From NCBI RefSeq assembly GCF_900128975.1, contig NZ_FQVC01000017.1:1-64000 (forward strand): a stretch of 64,000 nt of DNA. Reading direction: 5' to 3'. Positions 3,461-35,762 of this stretch are shown in pieces. Position 1 is the stretch's first letter. Every line of letters starts with the position of its first letter. The notes below the pieces were generated by a model. The model ran no database searches and had not been told where the DNA came from. It saw only the letters and a list, made by a program, of their open reading frames with translations. The position numbers and the translations under genes are program-made. The stretch is from Devosia limi DSM 17137. Its GTDB lineage: Bacteria; Pseudomonadota; Alphaproteobacteria; Rhizobiales; Devosiaceae.

Positions 3461-3503
3461 GCTCCCTCCCCCTACGTGGGGGAGGGCCGGGGTGGGGGGG
3501 GAA
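3461..3503. repeat. Family A repeat upstream of znuC
   Basis: One plus-oriented family A copy with the variant core CCTCCCCCTACGTGGGGGAGG lies in the znuC leader. It contains no stop codon in the znuC frame, so it falsely lengthens that frame upstream. Confidence 0.65.
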
Positions 3504-4652: not shown

Positions 4653-4692
4653 CTCCCTCCCCCTCGTGGGGAGGGCCGGGGTGGGGGGCTAG
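4653..4692. repeat. Family A repeat downstream of znuA
   Basis: A plus copy with a shortened core CCCTCCCCCTCGTGGGGAGGG and a GGGGTGGGGGGC tail, in the 443-bp gap between znuA and aztD. Confidence 0.65.
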
Positions 4693-6233: not shown

Positions 6234-6306
6234 TCGTCCTCCCCCTTGCAGGGGGGCTCGCAGTCGTCGCCCTCCCCCTCAGGGGGAGGGATCAAGGGTG
6301 GGGGTC
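6234..6306. repeat. Family A repeats upstream of the zigA-like gene
   Basis: A short palindrome (CCTCCCCCTTGCAGGGGGG, about 6237-6256) is followed by a full plus copy at about 6268-6306 (CCCTCCCCCTCAGGGGGAGGG and a GGGTGGGGGTCTC tail). Both lie between aztD and the next start. Confidence 0.65.
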
Positions 6307-8480: not shown

Positions 8481-9230
8481 ATGTTCCGCAATCTGTTTCT
8501 TGCTGCGCTGGTCGCAGCGCTTTGTGCTGGCCTGGTCACTTCCGCCTTCCAGGCCTGGCGGGTAACCCCATTGATCTTTGCCGCCGAAGCCTTCGAGGGC
8601 GGCGGCGAAGCCGTCCACACCCATGAAGCAGCCACGCCCGCACCCGGCCAGGATGCCGCCACCACGATGCCTGCCCACGATCACGGCGAGGAAGAGTGGA
8701 TGCCGCAGGACGGGTTCGAGCGCACGGCCTTTACACTCTTCTCCAACATCCTCGCGGCCGCTGGTTACGCACTGATCATCGGCGCCGTGTCGGTCCTTTT
8801 TGCCCTGCCCATCACCTTTGCCAATGGCATTCTCTGGGGCCTCGGCGGCTTTGCCGCCTTCACCCTGGCGCCGGCGCTTGGCCTGCCCCCTGGCATGCCC
8901 GGCATGCCGGTGGCCGATACGTTGGCGCGTCAGGTCTGGTGGTTCGGCGCCGCCCTTTCCACAGGCGCAGCCCTGGTCCTGGTCGCCAAGGTGCGGGCCC
9001 CCTGGGCGCTCGCCGTCGCCGTCGCGCTGGTGCTGCTGCCCCAGCTCATTGCCGCCCCGCAGGCGCCGGACGACCCCACCGGCGTGCCGCCCCGCATGAC
9101 CGCCGAGTTCGTCGCCGCCGTGATCTATAACGGTGCCCTTTTCTGGGTCGTGCTCGGCCTTGCTTTCGGTCGCATGGCCGATCACCTTGCCGCCCGTTCG
9201 GCGGCCGTCCCCAATGGAGCCCGAGCATGA
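8481..9230 (+). CDS. cbtA: CbtA, membrane subunit of predicted cobalt transporter
   Basis: A 249-residue membrane protein with about five helices. It opens MFRNLFLAALVAALCAGLVTSAFQAWRVTPLIFAAE, the CbtA signature, and has a His-containing loop (AHDHGEEEWMPQDGFERTAFT). It pairs with CbtB in predicted cobalt uptake that feeds cobalamin synthesis. The 3' end overlaps cobW by 4 bp (ATGA), so the two are translationally coupled. Confidence 0.92.
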   Translation: MFRNLFLAALVAALCAGLVTSAFQAWRVTPLIFAAEAFEGGGEAVHTHEAATPAPGQDAATTMPAHDHGEEEWMPQDGFERTAFTLFSNILAAAGYALIIGAVSVLFALPITFANGILWGLGGFAAFTLAPALGLPPGMPGMPVADTLARQVWWFGAALSTGAALVLVAKVRAPWALAVAVALVLLPQLIAAPQAPDDPTGVPPRMTAEFVAAVIYNGALFWVVLGLAFGRMADHLAARSAAVPNGARA

Positions 9231-10288
9231 CCACCAAGATCCCGACCACCGTCATCACCGGCTTTCTCGGTGCCGGCAAGACTACCCTGGTGCGCCACCT
9301 GCTGGCCCATGCCCCCAAGGGCAAGCGCATCGCGCTGATCATCAACGAGTTTGGCGATCTCGGCGTCGACAAGGACATCCTCGCCGGCTGCGGCGATGAA
9401 ACCTGCCGCGAAGAGGATATGGTCGAGCTGTCCAATGGCTGCATTTGCTGCACCGTGGCCGATGAATTCATCCCCACCATGCAGGCGCTGCTCGCCCGTC
9501 CGGAAAAGTTCGATCACATCGTCATCGAGACTTCGGGCCTGGCTTTGCCGCAGCCGCTGATCCGCGCCTTCAACTGGCCCGAGATCAAGGCCCAGGTCAC
9601 CATTGACGGCATCGTCACCGTCGCCGACGCCTCGGCGCTGGCCGAAGGCCGCTTTGCCTCCGATGAAGCCGCCGTCGATGCCCTGCGCCGCCAGGACGAA
9701 ATGCTCGATCACGAAACCCCGCTTGGCGAATTGTTCGAGGACCAGCTTTCGGTCGCCGATCTGGTCATCATCAACAAGGCCGATCTGGTCGATGCCGCCA
9801 TGCTGGATAAGGTCGAAGCCAATATCCGCGCCGAACTGCGCCCCGGTGTCGGCGTCATCCATGCCCGCAATGGCCATGTCGATGTCGCCGCTCTGCTCGG
9901 CATGGGCATGGGCAGCGAAGACGACATCGCCAATCGGCCCAGCCATCACGAGCTGGAGCATGACGGGGAAACCCACGAGCACGACGATTTCGACTCCTTC
10001 TCGCTGCGTTTCCCCCAGGTGACCAGCAAGGACGATCTGCTGGCCGTCATCGAGGACACCATCCGCAGCCATGACGTGCTGCGCCTCAAGGGCTTCGCCG
10101 CCATCGAAGGCGCGCCGGCCCGTCTTGCCATCCAGGCCGTCGGTCCCCGCGTCACCGCCTATTTCGACCGCCCCTGGAAATCCGGCGAAGTCCGCGAGAC
10201 TGCCCTTGTCGTCATCGGCGAAAGCCCCCTCGACCACGCCGCCATCACCACCAGCCTGCACCGCGCCACTAAAGCCCTCGCGGCCTAG
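9227..10288 (+). CDS. cobW: CobW, cobalt-pathway COG0523 GTPase
   Basis: A 353-residue CobW GTPase with P-loop [15 protein letters not shown], the metal motif CICC in [14 protein letters not shown], an insert CGDETCREED typical of true CobW, ETSGLALPQP, NKAD and a His-rich stretch HHELEHDGETHEHDD near residue 243. CobW is thought to deliver cobalt to the CobNST chelatase. Direct position between cbtA and cobN supports this and separates it from the zinc paralogue at 6345. Confidence 0.93.
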   Translation: MTTKIPTTVITGFLGAGKTTLVRHLLAHAPKGKRIALIINEFGDLGVDKDILAGCGDETCREEDMVELSNGCICCTVADEFIPTMQALLARPEKFDHIVIETSGLALPQPLIRAFNWPEIKAQVTIDGIVTVADASALAEGRFASDEAAVDALRRQDEMLDHETPLGELFEDQLSVADLVIINKADLVDAAMLDKVEANIRAELRPGVGVIHARNGHVDVAALLGMGMGSEDDIANRPSHHELEHDGETHEHDDFDSFSLRFPQVTSKDDLLAVIEDTIRSHDVLRLKGFAAIEGAPARLAIQAVGPRVTAYFDRPWKSGEVRETALVVIGESPLDHAAITTSLHRATKALAA

Positions 10289-10304: not shown

Positions 10305-10343
10305 CCGTCCCTCCCCCTGTCAGGGGGAGGCTAGGTGGGGGTA
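10305..10343. repeat. Family A repeat between cobW and the PhnA-like gene
   Basis: A plus copy with core CCTCCCCCTGTCAGGGGGAGG and a short GGTGGGGGT tail, directly before the next ribosome site. Confidence 0.6.
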
Positions 10344-10692: not shown

Positions 10693-13600
10693 ATGCATCT
10701 GCTCTCCGCCCAGGCCGGCGCCATCCAGCAGGAGGGGGAGGCCATCGATCTGGCCCAGACCCCCGGCGCCATGATCTTTGCCTCCGCCGCCGATAGCGAA
10801 CTGGCCATGCTTGCCGGCGCCGCCGACCGGGCAGGGACGGCCGAGCTGCGCCTCGCCAATACCCTGCGCCTGTCCAACAATCTCTCCGTCGATCTCTGGC
10901 TGGAACAGACCGTCGCCCATGCGCGCCTTGTCGTCCTCCGCCTCATCGGCGGCGCTGCCTATTTCCAGTATGGCGTCGATGAGCTGACCGCCCTCTGCAC
11001 CAACAGGCGCATCCCGTTGGTCCTGCTCCCCGGCGATGCCAATCCCGATCCCATCCTGCAGGCGCGTTCCACCATCCACCCCGATGACTGGAGCCGCCTC
11101 CACGCCCTCTTCATCGCCGGCGGCCCCACCAATGCCGACGCCATCCTGCAAGCCTTCAACACGCTGGCCTCTTCTTTACCTCGCCCCTCCGGGGAGAGGT
11201 CGGCGGCTCTGCCGCCGGGTGAGGGGGCCTTGCTCGTCAATCTCCCCCCCACCCCTTTCGCCCGCTTCGGCCTCTGGTACCCCAGCCTCGGCATGCTCGA
11301 CGAAGCCGCCCTGCGCTCCACCCACGCGGCTCCACCCCTTCCCACCGAGGGAGGGGGGCCTGCGGCTTCATCCCCAAACCACATCCCCATCCTCTTCTAC
11401 CGCGCCGCCCTCGAAGGCGCTGGCACCGCCACCATCGAAGCGCTGATCGCCGAGCTGGAACGCCAGGGCCTCGCCCCGGTGCCGATGGTCGTCTCCTCGC
11501 TCAAGGAAGCCGCCTGCGTCCGCTTCGTGCAAAACGCCTTCGCCGCCTTCCCCCCCGCCGCCATCTTCAACCTCACCGGCTTCGCCCTCGGCCTCGATAG
11601 TCTCGACGCCAAGGCCAATCCCTTCGCGGGGGTCGATGCCCCGGTGATCCAGCTGATCCAGTCCGGCCGCTCATACGCCCAGTGGGAAGCCGACACGCAG
11701 GGCCTGTCCTCCAAGGACATGGCGATGTTCCTCGTCATGCCCGAGGTCGATGGCCGTCTCGCCGGCCTCATCGTCGGCCACAAGGCCGATGCTGTCTGGC
11801 ACGAGCGCACCCAGTGCCCGCTCAGCGCCTACGCCCCCGACGCCTCCGGCATCGCCCGCGCCGTCACCCTCGCCGCCAATTGGTCGCGCCTGCGCGCCAC
11901 CCCACGCCCCGCCCGCCGCATCGCCCTCGTCCTCGCCAACTACCCCATCCGCGACGGCCGCCTCGCCAACGGCGTCGGCTACGACGCCCCGGAATCAACA
12001 GTGCGCATGCTGCAGACCCTCGAAGCGGCTGGCTACACACTGACCCAGTTCCCCTCCCCCTTGAGGGGAGGGGCTAGGGGTGGGGGTGCTGCGCCCTCCA
12101 CCATCTCCGCCTCTCAGTCCGGCGGCCCCGGCCACGTCAACACCCGCCTGGCGCGAGCCCCCAAAAACCTCGAACGGGCCCGTTCCCTCCGCAGCGCGCC
12201 GACGCCGTTCGAGCAAAAACTCTGGAGCTATCTGCGGGGTCTCGACCAAGCACATTTCCGGCGTCAGGTTCCCATCGGCCCATATTTCGCCGACTTCGCC
12301 TCCCATGGCCTCAAGCTGGTCATCGAACTCGATGGCGACACCCATGCCAGCTCCAGCGCCCAAACCCATGATCGCATCCGGATCGAGTTCCTGACGGATG
12401 CCGGCTATCACGTCATCCGTTTCGCCAATCGCGATATCGCAGGCAATCTCAACGGCGTCTGGCAAGTCATTCAGGCCACAATTTCCGAGCGCAGCACCCC
12501 CACCCCTAACCCCTCCCCTCAAGGGGGAGGGGAACTCTCGCGCGCGCAAACCGACCCCACCGTCCCATCGCCTCCCTCCCCCTTGAGGGGAGGGACTGAG
12601 GGTGGGGGTGCTGCAGTCTCCGACTACCCAGTCGACTCCGCCGCCCTCATCACCGCCCTCCAATCCGGCCCCACCAACGCCAATCCGCAGCGCGGCACGT
12701 CCTCCGCCAGGCTCTCACTCGCCCGCTACGCCGAGCTCTTCGCCGCGCTCCCACCCAAAATCCAGGCCGAGGTCACCACCCGCTGGGGCCCGCCGTCCGC
12801 CGATCCCTTCGTGCGCAACAATGCCTTCCACCTCCCGGCGCTGGTCTTCGGCAATGTCGCCATCCTGCTCCAGCCCGCCCGCGGCTATCAGCTCGATGAA
12901 ACGCTGAGCTATCACGACCCGGCTTTGCCGCCGCCCCATGCCTATCTCGCCGCCTATCTCTGGCTGCGCCACGAATTCGACGCCCATGCGCTGATCCACA
13001 ATGGCAAGCACGGCACGCTCGAATGGTTGCCCGGCAAGGCGGCGGCGCTCGATGAGGCCAGCTATGCCGATGCGGTCTGGGGCCAGTTGCCCCATCTCTA
13101 TCCGTTCATCGTCAATGATCCCGGCGAAGGCACCCAGGCCAAGCGCCGCACCGGCGCAGTGATCATCGATCATCTGGTGCCGCCGCTGACCCGCGCTGAA
13201 ACCTACGGTCCCCTCAAGGATCTCGAAGCACTGCTCGACGAATACTACGCCGCCTCCGGCATGGATCGCCGCCGCCTCGCCGATCTGCGCCGCCGTATTC
13301 TCGATTTCACCCGCGATGCTCGCCTCGATCGCGACATCGGCCTGCCCGAGGACGAGACCGAGGCGCTGATCAAGATCGACAATTTCCTTTGCGACCTCAA
13401 GGAAGCCCAGATCCGTGATGGCCTGCACATTTTCGGGCAATCGCCGCAGGGCGATCTCGAACGGGACCTGATCGTCGCGTTGGCCCGTGTGCCGCGCGGC
13501 GACGGTCCGGGTGAAGGCTCCCTGATCCGCGCCCTGGCCGATGATCTCAAGCTTGGTTTCGATCCCCTGACCGCTAAATTGGGCGAGCCGTGGACCGGAC

Positions 13601-15132
13601 CGCAGCTGCCGCTGCTTGCCGGTCATGGGCTTGCCAGCACATCGCCAGCAAACCGCCAGCAAACCAGCAAGCAAGCCAGCAAGAAACCCAGCATGCTGGC
13701 TCGAATTCGCACCATTGGCGACGTTGTCGAGGCCCTGGAGGCCATCGCGGCCGAGCTGGTCGAAGGATTTATCCCCCATCCCGATTGGCACGCGACTAAA
13801 CTTGTCCTCGCCACCGTTGAGGACATTATCCGCCCCCGTCTGGCGGCCTCCGGGCCAGCTGAAATCCAGGGGCTGCTCGATGGTCTCGATGGCAAGTTTG
13901 TCGCCCCCGGCCCCTCCGGCGCCCCCTCGCGTGGCCGCCTCGACGTGCTGCCCACCGGCCGCAATTTCTACTCCGTCGATAGCCGCGCCGTGCCCACGCC
14001 GACCGCCTGGGAACTCGGCCGGAAATCGGCGGAAAGCCTGGTTCTCCGCCACTTCCAGGACCATGGCACTTATCTCAAGTCGGTTGCGCTCTCCGTCTGG
14101 GGCACCGCCAATATGCGCACTGGCGGCGACGATCTCGCCCAGGCCCTGGCGCTGATCGGTGCCCGCCCGACCTGGGACCCATCCTCGCTGCGCGTCTCGG
14201 GCTATGAAATCATCCCATTGGCCAAACTCGGACGCCCTCGCGTCGACGTCACCTTGCGGATATCGGGCTTTTTCCGTGATGCCTTCCCGGCCCAGATCGC
14301 CCTGTTCGACCGCGCCATCCGCGCCATCGGCGCCCTTGATGAACCCACCGACGACAACCCCATTGCCGCCCGCATGCGCACCGATGCCCTGGGCCTGATG
14401 GCCTCGGGCAGCTCGGAGCGCGAAGCCGCCCTGTCAGCTGGCCATCGCATTTTTGGTTCCAAACCAGGTACTTACGGAACCGGCCTTTCGGCGCTGATCG
14501 ATTCCGGCGCCTGGAAGGACAAGGCGGATCTGGGCAATCAGGCGCTCGATTGGGGCCAGTATGCCTATGGCGCCCAGGCTGCGGGTCTGCCGGAACGCGC
14601 CCGCTTTGCTGCCCGCCTCTCCGACCTCGATGCGGTGGTGCATAACCAGGATAACCGGGAGCACGACCTGCTCGACAGCGACAATTACTACCAGTTCGAA
14701 GGCGGCCTCGCCGCCGCCGCCGAACTGCTGGGCGGCACTACCCCCGCCGTCTATCACAACGATCACTCCCGCCCCGAGCGGCCACTTATCCGCACGCTCG
14801 AGGAGGAAATCTCCTTCGTTATGCGCTCCCGCGTCGTCAATCCAAAATGGCTCACCGGCGTCAAGCGCCACGGCTACAAGGGCGCCTTCGAAATCATCGC
14901 CACCCTCGACTTCATGTTCGCCTTCGCCGCGACGACTGGCGCGGTCAAAACCCACCATTTCGACATGGCCTTCGAGGCCTTTGTCGAAGATGAAGCGACC
15001 CGCGATTTCATCTGTGACAACAACCGCTTCGGCTATGACGAGCTGATCGCCAAATTCAATGAAGCCCGCCAGCGGGGCCTGTGGGTCCCGCGCTCCAATT
15101 CCGCCTATGCTTTTCTGGAGGAAAGCCGATGA
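10693..15132 (+). CDS. cobN: Cobaltochelatase subunit CobN carrying an in-frame DUF559 insertion
   Basis: CobN is the large subunit of the ATP-dependent CobNST chelatase, which puts cobalt into hydrogenobyrinic acid a,c-diamide. The frame is 1479 codons, against roughly 1250-1280 for usual CobN. The family core is intact: HNGKHGTLEWLPGK, FIVNDPGEGTQAKRRTGAVIIDHLVPPLTRAE, SVALSVWGTANMRTGGDD and VYHNDHSRPERP. The surplus is foreign. Residues about 452-641 are three family A repeats with a DUF559 endonuclease domain (487-597). Residues 162-179 and about 213-225 are short in-frame repeats. A Ser/Lys/Gln-rich linker lies near residue 990. No stop interrupts the frame, so one long polypeptide is predicted. 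Whether it is active or processed is unknown. The gene overlaps cobO by ATGA. Confidence 0.93.
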   Translation: MHLLSAQAGAIQQEGEAIDLAQTPGAMIFASAADSELAMLAGAADRAGTAELRLANTLRLSNNLSVDLWLEQTVAHARLVVLRLIGGAAYFQYGVDELTALCTNRRIPLVLLPGDANPDPILQARSTIHPDDWSRLHALFIAGGPTNADAILQAFNTLASSLPRPSGERSAALPPGEGALLVNLPPTPFARFGLWYPSLGMLDEAALRSTHAAPPLPTEGGGPAASSPNHIPILFYRAALEGAGTATIEALIAELERQGLAPVPMVVSSLKEAACVRFVQNAFAAFPPAAIFNLTGFALGLDSLDAKANPFAGVDAPVIQLIQSGRSYAQWEADTQGLSSKDMAMFLVMPEVDGRLAGLIVGHKADAVWHERTQCPLSAYAPDASGIARAVTLAANWSRLRATPRPARRIALVLANYPIRDGRLANGVGYDAPESTVRMLQTLEAAGYTLTQFPSPLRGGARGGGAAPSTISASQSGGPGHVNTRLARAPKNLERARSLRSAPTPFEQKLWSYLRGLDQAHFRRQVPIGPYFADFASHGLKLVIELDGDTHASSSAQTHDRIRIEFLTDAGYHVIRFANRDIAGNLNGVWQVIQATISERSTPTPNPSPQGGGELSRAQTDPTVPSPPSPLRGGTEGGGAAVSDYPVDSAALITALQSGPTNANPQRGTSSARLSLARYAELFAALPPKIQAEVTTRWGPPSADPFVRNNAFHLPALVFGNVAILLQPARGYQLDETLSYHDPALPPPHAYLAAYLWLRHEFDAHALIHNGKHGTLEWLPGKAAALDEASYADAVWGQLPHLYPFIVNDPGEGTQAKRRTGAVIIDHLVPPLTRAETYGPLKDLEALLDEYYAASGMDRRRLADLRRRILDFTRDARLDRDIGLPEDETEALIKIDNFLCDLKEAQIRDGLHIFGQSPQGDLERDLIVALARVPRGDGPGEGSLIRALADDLKLGFDPLTAKLGEPWTGPQLPLLAGHGLASTSPANRQQTSKQASKKPSMLARIRTIGDVVEALEAIAAELVEGFIPHPDWHATKLVLATVEDIIRPRLAASGPAEIQGLLDGLDGKFVAPGPSGAPSRGRLDVLPTGRNFYSVDSRAVPTPTAWELGRKSAESLVLRHFQDHGTYLKSVALSVWGTANMRTGGDDLAQALALIGARPTWDPSSLRVSGYEIIPLAKLGRPRVDVTLRISGFFRDAFPAQIALFDRAIRAIGALDEPTDDNPIAARMRTDALGLMASGSSEREAALSAGHRIFGSKPGTYGTGLSALIDSGAWKDKADLGNQALDWGQYAYGAQAAGLPERARFAARLSDLDAVVHNQDNREHDLLDSDNYYQFEGGLAAAAELLGGTTPAVYHNDHSRPERPLIRTLEEEISFVMRSRVVNPKWLTGVKRHGYKGAFEIIATLDFMFAFAATTGAVKTHHFDMAFEAFVEDEATRDFICDNNRFGYDELIAKFNEARQRGLWVPRSNSAYAFLEESR
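11176..11229. repeat. Short palindromic repeat inserted in frame in cobN
   Basis: A 54-bp stretch made of two nested palindromes (CCCCTCCGGGG and CGGCGGCTCTGCCGCCG) and ending GGGTGAGGGGG adds 18 codons (LPRPSGERSAALPPGEGA) with no stop. It resembles a second class of alphaproteobacterial REP-like element. Aligned CobN proteins would be expected to lack it. Confidence 0.6.
11329..11366. repeat. Second short repeat-like insert in frame in cobN
   Basis: A C-rich then G-rich palindromic stretch (CCACCCCTTCCCACCGAGGG, then AGGGGGGCCTGC) encodes APPLPTEGGGPA inside cobN. It is similar in style to family A but more diverged, and the limits are approximate. Confidence 0.45.
12048..12094 (+). repeat. 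Left family A repeat of the cobN element
   Basis: Plus-oriented copy, with core CCCCTCCCCCTTGAGGGGAG and tail GGGGTGGGGGTGCTGCGC. In the cobN frame it reads SPLRGGARGGGA. Confidence 0.8.
12151..12483 (+). CDS. DUF559 (Vsr-like PD-(D/E)XK endonuclease) domain within the cobN frame
   Basis: About 111 residues, starting ARAPKNLERARSLRSAPTPFEQKLWSYLRG and ending NLNGVWQVIQATI. The whole DUF559 pattern is present: FRRQVPIGPYFADFA, KLVIELDGDTH with the acidic E and D and the following His, then HDRIRIEFLTDAGYHVIRFANRDI. The expected nuclease residues appear intact. There is no in-frame ATG or GTG and no ribosome site, so the domain can only be made as part of CobN unless an unusual start is used. 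Free-standing DUF559 genes are usual in related bacteria. This is a domain entry rather than a separate gene. Confidence 0.85.
12489..12535 (-). repeat. Right family A repeat of the cobN element (inverted)
   Basis: Minus-oriented copy, 46 of 47 positions identical to the left repeat in inverted orientation. In the cobN frame it reads STPTPNPSPQGGGE. Confidence 0.8.
12572..12614 (+). repeat. Third family A repeat in cobN
   Basis: A plus-oriented copy 36 bp beyond the right repeat, with core CTCCCTCCCCCTTGAGGGGA and tail GGGTGGGGGTGCTGC. It reads SPLRGGTEGGGA in the cobN frame. After it, normal CobN sequence resumes with SDYPVDSAALITALQSGPTN. Confidence 0.75.
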
Positions 15133-35390: not shown

Positions 35391-35475
35391 CACACGCTCC
35401 GGCCTCGTGACAACCGCGGCACCCCCACCCTAACCCTCCCCCTCGAGGGGGAGGGGACGCAGACTGCGGGGGCGG
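35391..35475 (+). repeat. 85-bp direct repeat, copy 1 (contains a family A element)
   Basis: An 85-bp block beginning CACACGCTCCGGCCTCGTGA and ending in ACTGCGGGGGCGG, with an internal minus-oriented family A palindrome (35417-35460). It recurs at 35678-35762 with only a few base changes, some of them paired changes inside the palindrome. Confidence 0.7.
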
Positions 35476-35511
35476 TTTTGGGGTTGGGCGATGACGCCGC
35501 AACAGACTCGG

Positions 35512-35626: not shown

Positions 35627-35670
35627 TCTCCCTCCCCCTCGAGGGGGAGGGATCAAGGGTGGGGGTTCTG
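35627..35670 (+). repeat. Family A repeat, plus copy in the 35-kb nest
   Basis: Core CCCTCCCCCTCGAGGGGGAG with a GGGTGGGGGTTCTG tail. It lies between the two 85-bp direct repeats. Confidence 0.65.
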
Positions 35671-35677
35671 CGCGCCC

Positions 35678-35762
35678 CACACGCTCCGGCCTCGTGACAA
35701 CCGCAGCGCCCCCACCCTGACCCTCCCCCTCAAGGGGGAGGGGACGCAGACTGCGGGGGCGG
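35678..35762 (+). repeat. 85-bp direct repeat, copy 2
   Basis: Second copy of the block at 35391-35475. Its internal family A palindrome lies at 35702-35750. A family B copy follows at 35778-35807. The whole gap 34839-35845 holds no gene that can be supported. It is a repeat nest plus the hairpin at 34973. Confidence 0.7.

Follow-up and report, generated by a model that had tools for sequence, protein, structure and literature searches.

DUF559 nuclease genes beside triplex-motif repeats in Devosia and other bacteria, with an in-frame unit in cobN

Triplex-forming repeats of the BoxC/PIT kind are widespread in bacteria and have been noted since the 1990s, and we know of no established origin for them. 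In the available part of the account by Holder et al. (2015, PMC4666352), the G/C-rich class II of these intrastrand triplex motifs (TMs; BoxC, PIT) occurs in more than 260 genomes; Escherichia coli K-12 has 23 TMs, always intergenic and linked to genome instability, with no mobility activities found around the copies, and triplex formation was shown in vitro for an E. coli TM sequence. Our results concern a 64,000-nt stretch of the alphaproteobacterium Devosia limi DSM 17137 (contig NZ_FQVC01000017.1, positions 1 to 64,000; hereafter, the window), in which repeats of this kind bracket a DUF559 nuclease domain in frame within the cobaltochelatase gene cobN. Across Devosia and other bacteria, DUF559 genes lie beside such repeats and co-occur with their abundance, and we consider it probable that DUF559 is a dedicated nuclease of TM repeats that acts on them and drives their turnover.

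The nearest precedent for such a pairing is that of REP/REPIN repeats with RAYT (TnpA-REP) in REPtrons, where, as here, a nuclease gene is flanked by its own dispersed palindromic repeat, repeat families are lineage specific, and stand-alone repeats come in pairs (PMC3733652, available part). However, the enzyme here is of the PD-(D/E)XK class, whereas RAYT is an HUH tyrosine transposase, and the window repeats carry a triplex tail and, by eye, no GTAG tag at the foot of the palindrome, unlike REPs. Since a Y1 transposase and a GTAG tag were both looked for and both absent, the arrangement appears to work like RAYT/REP without belonging to it. The CGTC palindromic repeats resemble ours in occurring in Alphaproteobacteria and in having, in the available part of their description, no transposase partner, but differ in sequence (PMC3733652). 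Vsr and the Vsr-like homing endonuclease I-Bth0305I share the fold of DUF559 and a patchy occupancy of one gene site. Unlike in these enzymes (the I-Bth0305I family is named EDxHD), no intron or intein was seen here, triplex repeats flank the domain, and the genes are mostly resident. Rickettsia palindromic elements are likewise inserted in frame in genes but, to our knowledge, carry no nuclease. Lastly, VsrA of Caulobacter has a DUF559 domain but has been studied as a mismatch-repair nuclease (PMC12907096, available part). The literature searched, with preprints and most subscription papers outside its reach, reports no association between DUF559 and repeats.

Triplex-motif repeats beside DUF559 genes

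In each repeat, a C-rich and a G-rich stem are followed by another G-rich block (for example, CCCCTCCCCCTTGAGGGGAGGGGCTAGGGGTGGG), and the window repeats place the pyrimidine stem, the purine stem, and the third purine strand on one strand. By this block order, they are classed as BoxC/PIT TMs, so the repeats themselves are already described (Holder 2015), where an initial sequence-only reading had known of no described system of a nuclease with such palindromic ends. A G-quadruplex was considered, given the four G runs of the purine part; the triplex description fits the block order. A detector for triplex structure found 16 TMs in the window versus none in five shuffles, although those at 12560-12595 and 35434-35488 each share positions with a neighbouring TM and may be detector artefacts, and the pattern CTCCCCN3-8GGGGAG has 190 copies genome-wide versus none for the reversed pattern, which argues against chance. 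High copy number, inverted pairs, and a link to instability are further likenesses to the TMs of Holder et al.; in contrast to the E. coli copies, which the available text places between genes and without mobility genes (PMC4666352), those studied here also lie within the cobN frame, in several Devosia, and are tied to a nuclease gene.

Nearly all DUF559 genes examined have such a repeat close by. In counts restricted to matches that score 40 bits or more, span at least 80 model positions, and have 150 bp of sequence to either side, with duplicates dropped, a TM lies within 250 bp on at least one side of 132 of 145 Devosia copies (both sides in 82), 68 of 72 named copies outside Devosia (48), and 35 of 38 copies from the class (24), eight of the last from one genome; the E. 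coli copy (no repeat) and four Devosia copies of the named set (three with a repeat) form separate rows. In control placements within the fetched loci, only 58 of 556 had a TM (both sides in six, one side in 52), and none of 30 ParE toxin genes did. A further phylum sample gave 13 both-sided and 11 one-sided cases among 27 loci, a 28th locus being too short. Inverted flank similarity scored without any motif agreed: scores of at least 14 were reached by 65 of the 80 named loci but by just 5 of 435 control placements in these loci, and also by 25 of 33 genus loci (taken from part of the Devosia matches listed), 18 of 30 of the class sample, none of 30 ParE loci, and none of four Y1 transposase loci of the genus. 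The bracket score was lower for some of the named copies (for example, Omnitrophota locus, 12; Planctomycetota locus, 16). By phylum, the 72 named copies comprise 64 from Pseudomonadota, three without a phylum, and five from Melainabacteria, Nitrospirota, Binatota, and Omnitrophota; these five, assigned by record title and all metagenome-assembled by title, each carry a TM. In the genome of the window, DUF559 occurs at four places, one of them broken into two pieces, and all four lie between inverted palindromic repeats. The association suggested earlier is supported there, in the genus, and beyond it, and the refuting outcome named with it, DUF559 genes elsewhere in the genome that lack such repeats, was not seen.

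The repeats are also oriented. In 129 of 155 both-sided cases, the nearest TM pair points its tails at the DUF559 gene. Neighbouring stand-alone pairs in Devosia loci are mostly opposite with their tails outward (-+, 77 of 126; +-, 27; --, 13; ++, 9).

The association extends to whole genomes, as counted with a loose repeat pattern that includes the copies adjoining each DUF559 gene, and with kinship handled by within-family contrasts and a genome-size cut. Of 289 Alphaproteobacteria in a first sample, 67 have DUF559 (E < 1e-20) and 222 do not; at least five pattern copies occurred in 56 of the former and 17 of the latter (odds ratio, 61), while RAYT/Y1 transposases in the same genomes bore no relation to repeat abundance (15 of 58 versus 58 of 231; odds ratio, 1.04). 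Contrasts within families gave higher repeat counts with DUF559 in 23 cases and lower in three; when this sample was cut to its 69 genomes that reach 4 Mb, the proportions were 26 of 29 versus 7 of 40. Further Alphaproteobacteria (43 of 48 versus 6 of 42) and other classes of the phylum (26 of 36 versus 12 of 212) behaved likewise, with odds ratios of 43-61 across the alphaproteobacterial and other-class samples. Within Devosia, the median palindrome count was 149 with DUF559 and 42 without (59 and 9 genomes, each at least 90% complete; one-sided p = 0.007).

Further, the main DUF559 lineages in Devosia keep their own TM family. On a tree of 148 rows and 111 columns, with 135 rows labelled by repeat family, the two families change five times versus 43.6 in shuffles, a contrast inflated by the inheritance of copies at one site. 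The count per site is independent of such inheritance: family 1 is found at two sites that many genomes share (with 27 and 23 copies labelled) and at two that have a single copy each, and family 2 accounts for every labelled copy at 24 other sites; one copy at site 11 has neither. This pairing of lineages resembles that of RAYTs with REPs.

It is also hard to explain by passive neighbourhood, that is, by DUF559 genes residing in repeat-rich accessory regions or by repeats gathering there as terminators. TMs are indeed common in such genomes, as the count for the window illustrates. Nevertheless, the rarity of both-sided placements, the absence of TMs beside ParE, another small accessory family, the genome-level odds ratios, and the match of repeat family to nuclease lineage in a genus that has both families make a merely passive association very improbable.

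The cobN insert and its linker

The window carries cobN as a single open frame of 1,479 aa, and the DUF559 unit lies within it (Table 1). The claim of near-identical 47-bp inverted repeats around the domain proved accurate, the arms measuring 48 nt with 98% complementarity and one mismatch. The domain is read in the cobN frame, as had been proposed (aa 493-597; Pfam, E = 7e-25), and a Pfam scan of the entire frame returned CobN, DUF559, and MTES_1575 only. The scan found no splicing (Hint) domain, and thus no sign of an intein, in the frame; between the repeats, it gave DUF559/MTES_1575 and no known transposase. The domain was also said to lack a start codon of its own, which holds for ATG and GTG; in-frame candidates at 12046-12300 are limited to one TTG (12061, inside the left repeat) and two CTG. 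Because there is no ATG or GTG start, and with the unit whole and in frame, CobN most likely includes the domain when it is translated.

A third repeat copy follows the domain and cobN stays open, in agreement with the first description. This copy (aligned over 12574-12621) has the same orientation as the first, from which it is separated by 522 bp (174 codons), and is 88% identical over 48 nt, so that recombination between the two would preserve the frame. The linker that holds the unit is 236 aa long here versus about 44 aa for the shortest linkers of relatives, which gives an insert of about 190 codons, matching the excess length already noticed. In an alignment with the solved CobN 9uk9, the matching place, near chain residue 425, has no insert.

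The window domain matches PF04480 (DUF559) at 87.4 bits (curated cut-off, 20.6) and shares 15 residues invariant in 40 aligned DUF559s, itself included, among them E32, D59, E70, D72, H76, and D85, in line with the intact motif residues reported before. A structure model (pLDDT 83.7) has as nearest folds DUF559 3hrl (E = 2.9e-5), the catalytic domain of the homing endonuclease I-Bth0305I, and Vsr 1cw0 (E = 7.6e-4). The Foldseek search with this model also listed mitoribosomal proteins. Among same-type cobN copies, dN/dS was 0.10-0.29 in the 10 of 25 pairs where it was computable; by this codon-level measure, DUF559 is under purifying selection. A role as a defence system was set aside, PADLOC matches being only weak (best E = 0.00099).

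Table 1. Positions of the cobN unit and of other triplex motifs in the window
Feature	Position	Strand	Basis
cobN (cobaltochelatase subunit), holds the insert	10693..15132	+	ORF; PF02514, TIGR02257
Left repeat arm; TM core 12051-12084; tail faces nuclease	12047..12094	+	repeat comparison and detector
DUF559 (PD-(D/E)XK, Vsr-like) domain, type A, cobN frame	12169..12483	+	Pfam, residues, model
Right repeat arm, inverted; TM core 12499-12532; tail faces nuclease	12489..12536	-	repeat comparison and detector
Third repeat copy, direct to first, in frame; TM core 12573-12606	12572..12614	+	repeat comparison and detector
Other-family element ending GGGTGAGGGGG, with second hairpin, in cobN frame	11179..11227	+	
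Stand-alone TM just past ORF 9227-10288	10310..10341	+	detector
TMs away from cobN	1024-1055, 1102-1133, 2419-2450, 2497-2528, 3464-3497, 4655-4686, 6270-6303		detector
TMs away from cobN, continued	35423-35455, 35434-35488, 35629-35663, 35710-35742		detector

Occupancy of the cobN linker by DUF559 is patchy. cobN was matched in 58 of 75 Devosia genomes, fetched from 53, and placed in a tree for 49; that of genome G062 was read by hand, and those of G010, G013 (because of frame shifts), and G052 were left out. Among the 50 species read, 11 hold DUF559 in the linker and the others have a linker of repeat length or a short one. Specifically, the 49 species of the tree comprise 10 with DUF559, 22 with a longer linker (the "repeat" state, at least 54 aa, most with repeat-derived peptides), and 17 with a short one. 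DUF559 presence changes 10 times on this tree, which is the maximum; 24 of 46 inner branches are unresolved, and the well-supported branches alone force five changes. Near relatives differ: the linker is short in G003 and filled in G040, it has a family-1 repeat in G067 and DUF559 with family-2 repeats in G066, and G014 and G037 carry different DUF559 types, A and B. The linkers of 39 of 50 Devosia, together with 9uk9, lack the domain, which is thus not universal in CobN, and its presence and absence among close relatives bear out the earlier idea that cobN tolerates the in-frame insertion.

Short linkers in relatives disfavour an old fixed part of CobN. That DUF559 has since taken on a function within CobN in these species would be consistent with the reading frame, with the lack of an ATG or GTG start in the window copy, and with the low dN/dS; its scatter over so few species, whose relatives have short or repeat-length linkers, leaves us giving such domestication almost no credence.

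The cobN copies form a single clade of 11, with two types (SH-aLRT 90); a twelfth member of this cluster, in G057, has its DUF559 outside the linker and was not counted. In 54 of 55 pairs, the insert is more diverged at synonymous sites than the cobN sequence around it, and descent together with cobN fits G066 and G074 only. Only the contrast with the flanks was used here, because the insert is close to synonymous saturation and its codon usage may not be the same. These patterns fit allelic exchange, or gains that recur, at a single tolerant site, losses being inseparable from gains.

One account of such exchange is that the nuclease gene is selfish and homes, cutting repeat-bearing sites that lack it, with the repeats being targets and scars that spread by other means. 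The likeness of the catalytic domain to that of I-Bth0305I speaks for homing, as do the single clade of cobN copies, whose members are nevertheless dispersed over the cobN tree and exceed their flanks in divergence, and the different types in near relatives G014 and G037. Yet many stand-alone repeats per genome go with the nuclease, more than would be expected of mere target sites, and the phylogeny within cobN rests on about 105 aa; as the whole explanation, homing seems to us rather improbable.

Other repeat material was seen in cobN. In the gene of G062 (locus L090), inverted repeat pairs form about five tandem units, in frame, ahead of DUF559, and two loci (L098 and L099, of G071 and G020) have a third kind of repeat-like peptide, SSPHGEPVEPRGR, in the same linker. 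In the window, the N-terminal part of cobN contains a second, different repeat family (11179-11227; peptide RPSGERSAALPPGEG), an element that was spotted by eye, has a hand-counted position, and is outside the 16 of the detector.

Inheritance and a proposed mechanism of movement

The sequence-only reading had proposed a mobile unit in which a DUF559 nuclease and palindromic ends travel together. That the two go together stands; a freely jumping transposon does not, given site-bound copies, the lack of near-identical copies within genomes, rare plasmid and phage matches, and no definable target duplication. In Devosia, 152 DUF559 matches in 56 genomes fall into about 32 sites (fetched places, with pieces of broken genes counted apart), and we take the copies to be mostly inherited because they follow their site on the tree. 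An ordinary transposon was rejected on that lack of near-identical copies and on the rarity of plasmid and phage matches: a tblastn search with the window copy (E, 1e-5) matched 44 of 72,556 plasmid records, several of them chromosome-sized, and 2 of 50,697 phage records, counts that a single diverged query keeps low. On Azospirillum plasmids, no empty site was found, the seven records with at least 80% coverage of the A. brasilense stretch all holding the DUF559 copy and the flanks of the A. lipoferum copy matching different records in relatives. RAYT was also rejected as the mover, on its independence of repeat abundance in the 289 genomes and on its distribution: 72 of 75 Devosia, including the genome of the window, have no Y1 transposase (PF01797) match, and none of the four Y1 loci found in the genus is bracketed by repeats. 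G001, G048, and G054 are the only Devosia with such matches. Three Legionella segments that contain both a transposase and DUF559 are described as hot spots of mutation and recombination (PMC12308824, available part).

If DUF559 is the nuclease of the TM repeats, its relation to them looks like that of RAYT to REPs, with a mostly resident nuclease and many small non-coding partners. We infer cutting, movement, and the chemistry of movement along the following lines. The repeat, a pyrimidine-purine hairpin followed by a purine third strand, would fold, and the nuclease, whose gene usually sits where two repeats face tail to tail, would cut at folded or single-stranded repeat DNA. Repair or re-joining of the break could then yield single repeats, inverted pairs, and, occasionally, a whole repeat-nuclease-repeat unit copied elsewhere; alternatively, allelic sites could be exchanged in a homing-like manner. 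Since the G+C-rich repeats leave the cobN frame open, insertions with a length divisible by three may survive where a loop tolerates them, as in the CobN linker.

Several observations weigh against this proposal. Movement, cutting, and precise excision were not seen in this sequence analysis, and no target duplication could be defined by eye from filled and empty cobN linkers, which are too diverged. DUF559 copies track their genomic site (36 changes over 32 sites), and among 205 within-genome pairs from 45 genomes, none reaches 90% identity and two reach 80%, so that recent copying of the gene is not seen. Sites 15, 19, and 20, part of a divergent group, have mixed repeat families, the Devosia site-1 lineage has no inverted bracket by flank scoring, just a nearby family-1 repeat, and ycjD of E. 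coli is not bracketed, with no TM in the 13 kb fetched, despite the 23 TMs of strain K-12. Exceptions to co-occurrence run both ways, with fewer than five copies in 11 of 67 Alphaproteobacteria and 10 of 36 genomes of other classes that have DUF559, and at least five in 17 of 222 and 12 of 212 that do not; in Devosia, palindromes number 272 in G012 and 195 in G050, neither of which gave a DUF559 match. Four of the 17 repeat-rich Alphaproteobacteria without a strong match have a weak one, and these may be decayed genes. Finally, Caulobacter VsrA, a DUF559 protein, is read as a likely Vsr-type mismatch-repair enzyme and provokes an SOS response in cells without cytosine methyltransferase (PMC12907096, available part).

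VsrA accords with another explanation, in which DUF559 is a Vsr-like repair or structure-processing nuclease needed by repeat-rich genomes, for example to process repeats that fold at replication forks, and co-occurrence reflects dependence. Its Vsr-like fold and conserved residues, vertical persistence at sites without recent gene copies, and purifying selection are all consistent with such a repair partner. What this leaves unexplained is why the gene, at many separate sites, is enclosed by inverted copies of its own repeat family, along with the patchy in-frame copies in cobN, and we regard it as unlikely, though less so than homing. A nuclease dedicated to the repeats remains the reading we prefer. 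More tentatively, it is possible that DUF559 and triplex repeats constitute a two-part system that occurs in several phyla of bacteria and would be, after RAYT/REP, the second partnership of a nuclease with repeats. In it, a PD-(D/E)XK nuclease would read non-B structure in its cognate repeat, drive the spreading and turnover of tens to hundreds of repeats per genome, and spread its own repeat-flanked gene in a homing-like way, even in frame within conserved enzymes and without splicing. We consider the arrangement new because neither a mover nor a repair partner of this kind fits a described system in the literature searched; it pairs an unrelated enzyme class with a structurally different repeat and could be new in kind, although a stricter reader could call it a nuclease-repeat variant. 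For DUF559, a family without known function, and for the triplex repeats, the link gives each a testable role, and repeats that lack a mover gain a candidate other than RAYT. The cobN case adds a nuclease unit tolerated in frame within a metabolic enzyme encoded by a vitamin B12 gene.

Individual DUF559 loci showed further features. A palindrome, GTCATTCCGGCGAAAGCCGGGATCCAGT, near a broken DUF559 gene (L004, 1160-1231) resembles repeats of the CGTC type, which we take to have no known mover. At locus L002 (1867-3157; G000, contig C15), tandem units of about 310 bp, each a piece resembling the 3' end of uvrB plus repeat pairs, adjoin the DUF559 gene, and at the same site in G005 (L069, 734-3749), a 1,205-bp duplication, 99.8% identical, flanks the gene. 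On a plasmid of Deinococcus sp. NW-56 (L396), an hpa catabolic cluster has among its genes, but on the other strand, a DUF559 gene with a triplex repeat.

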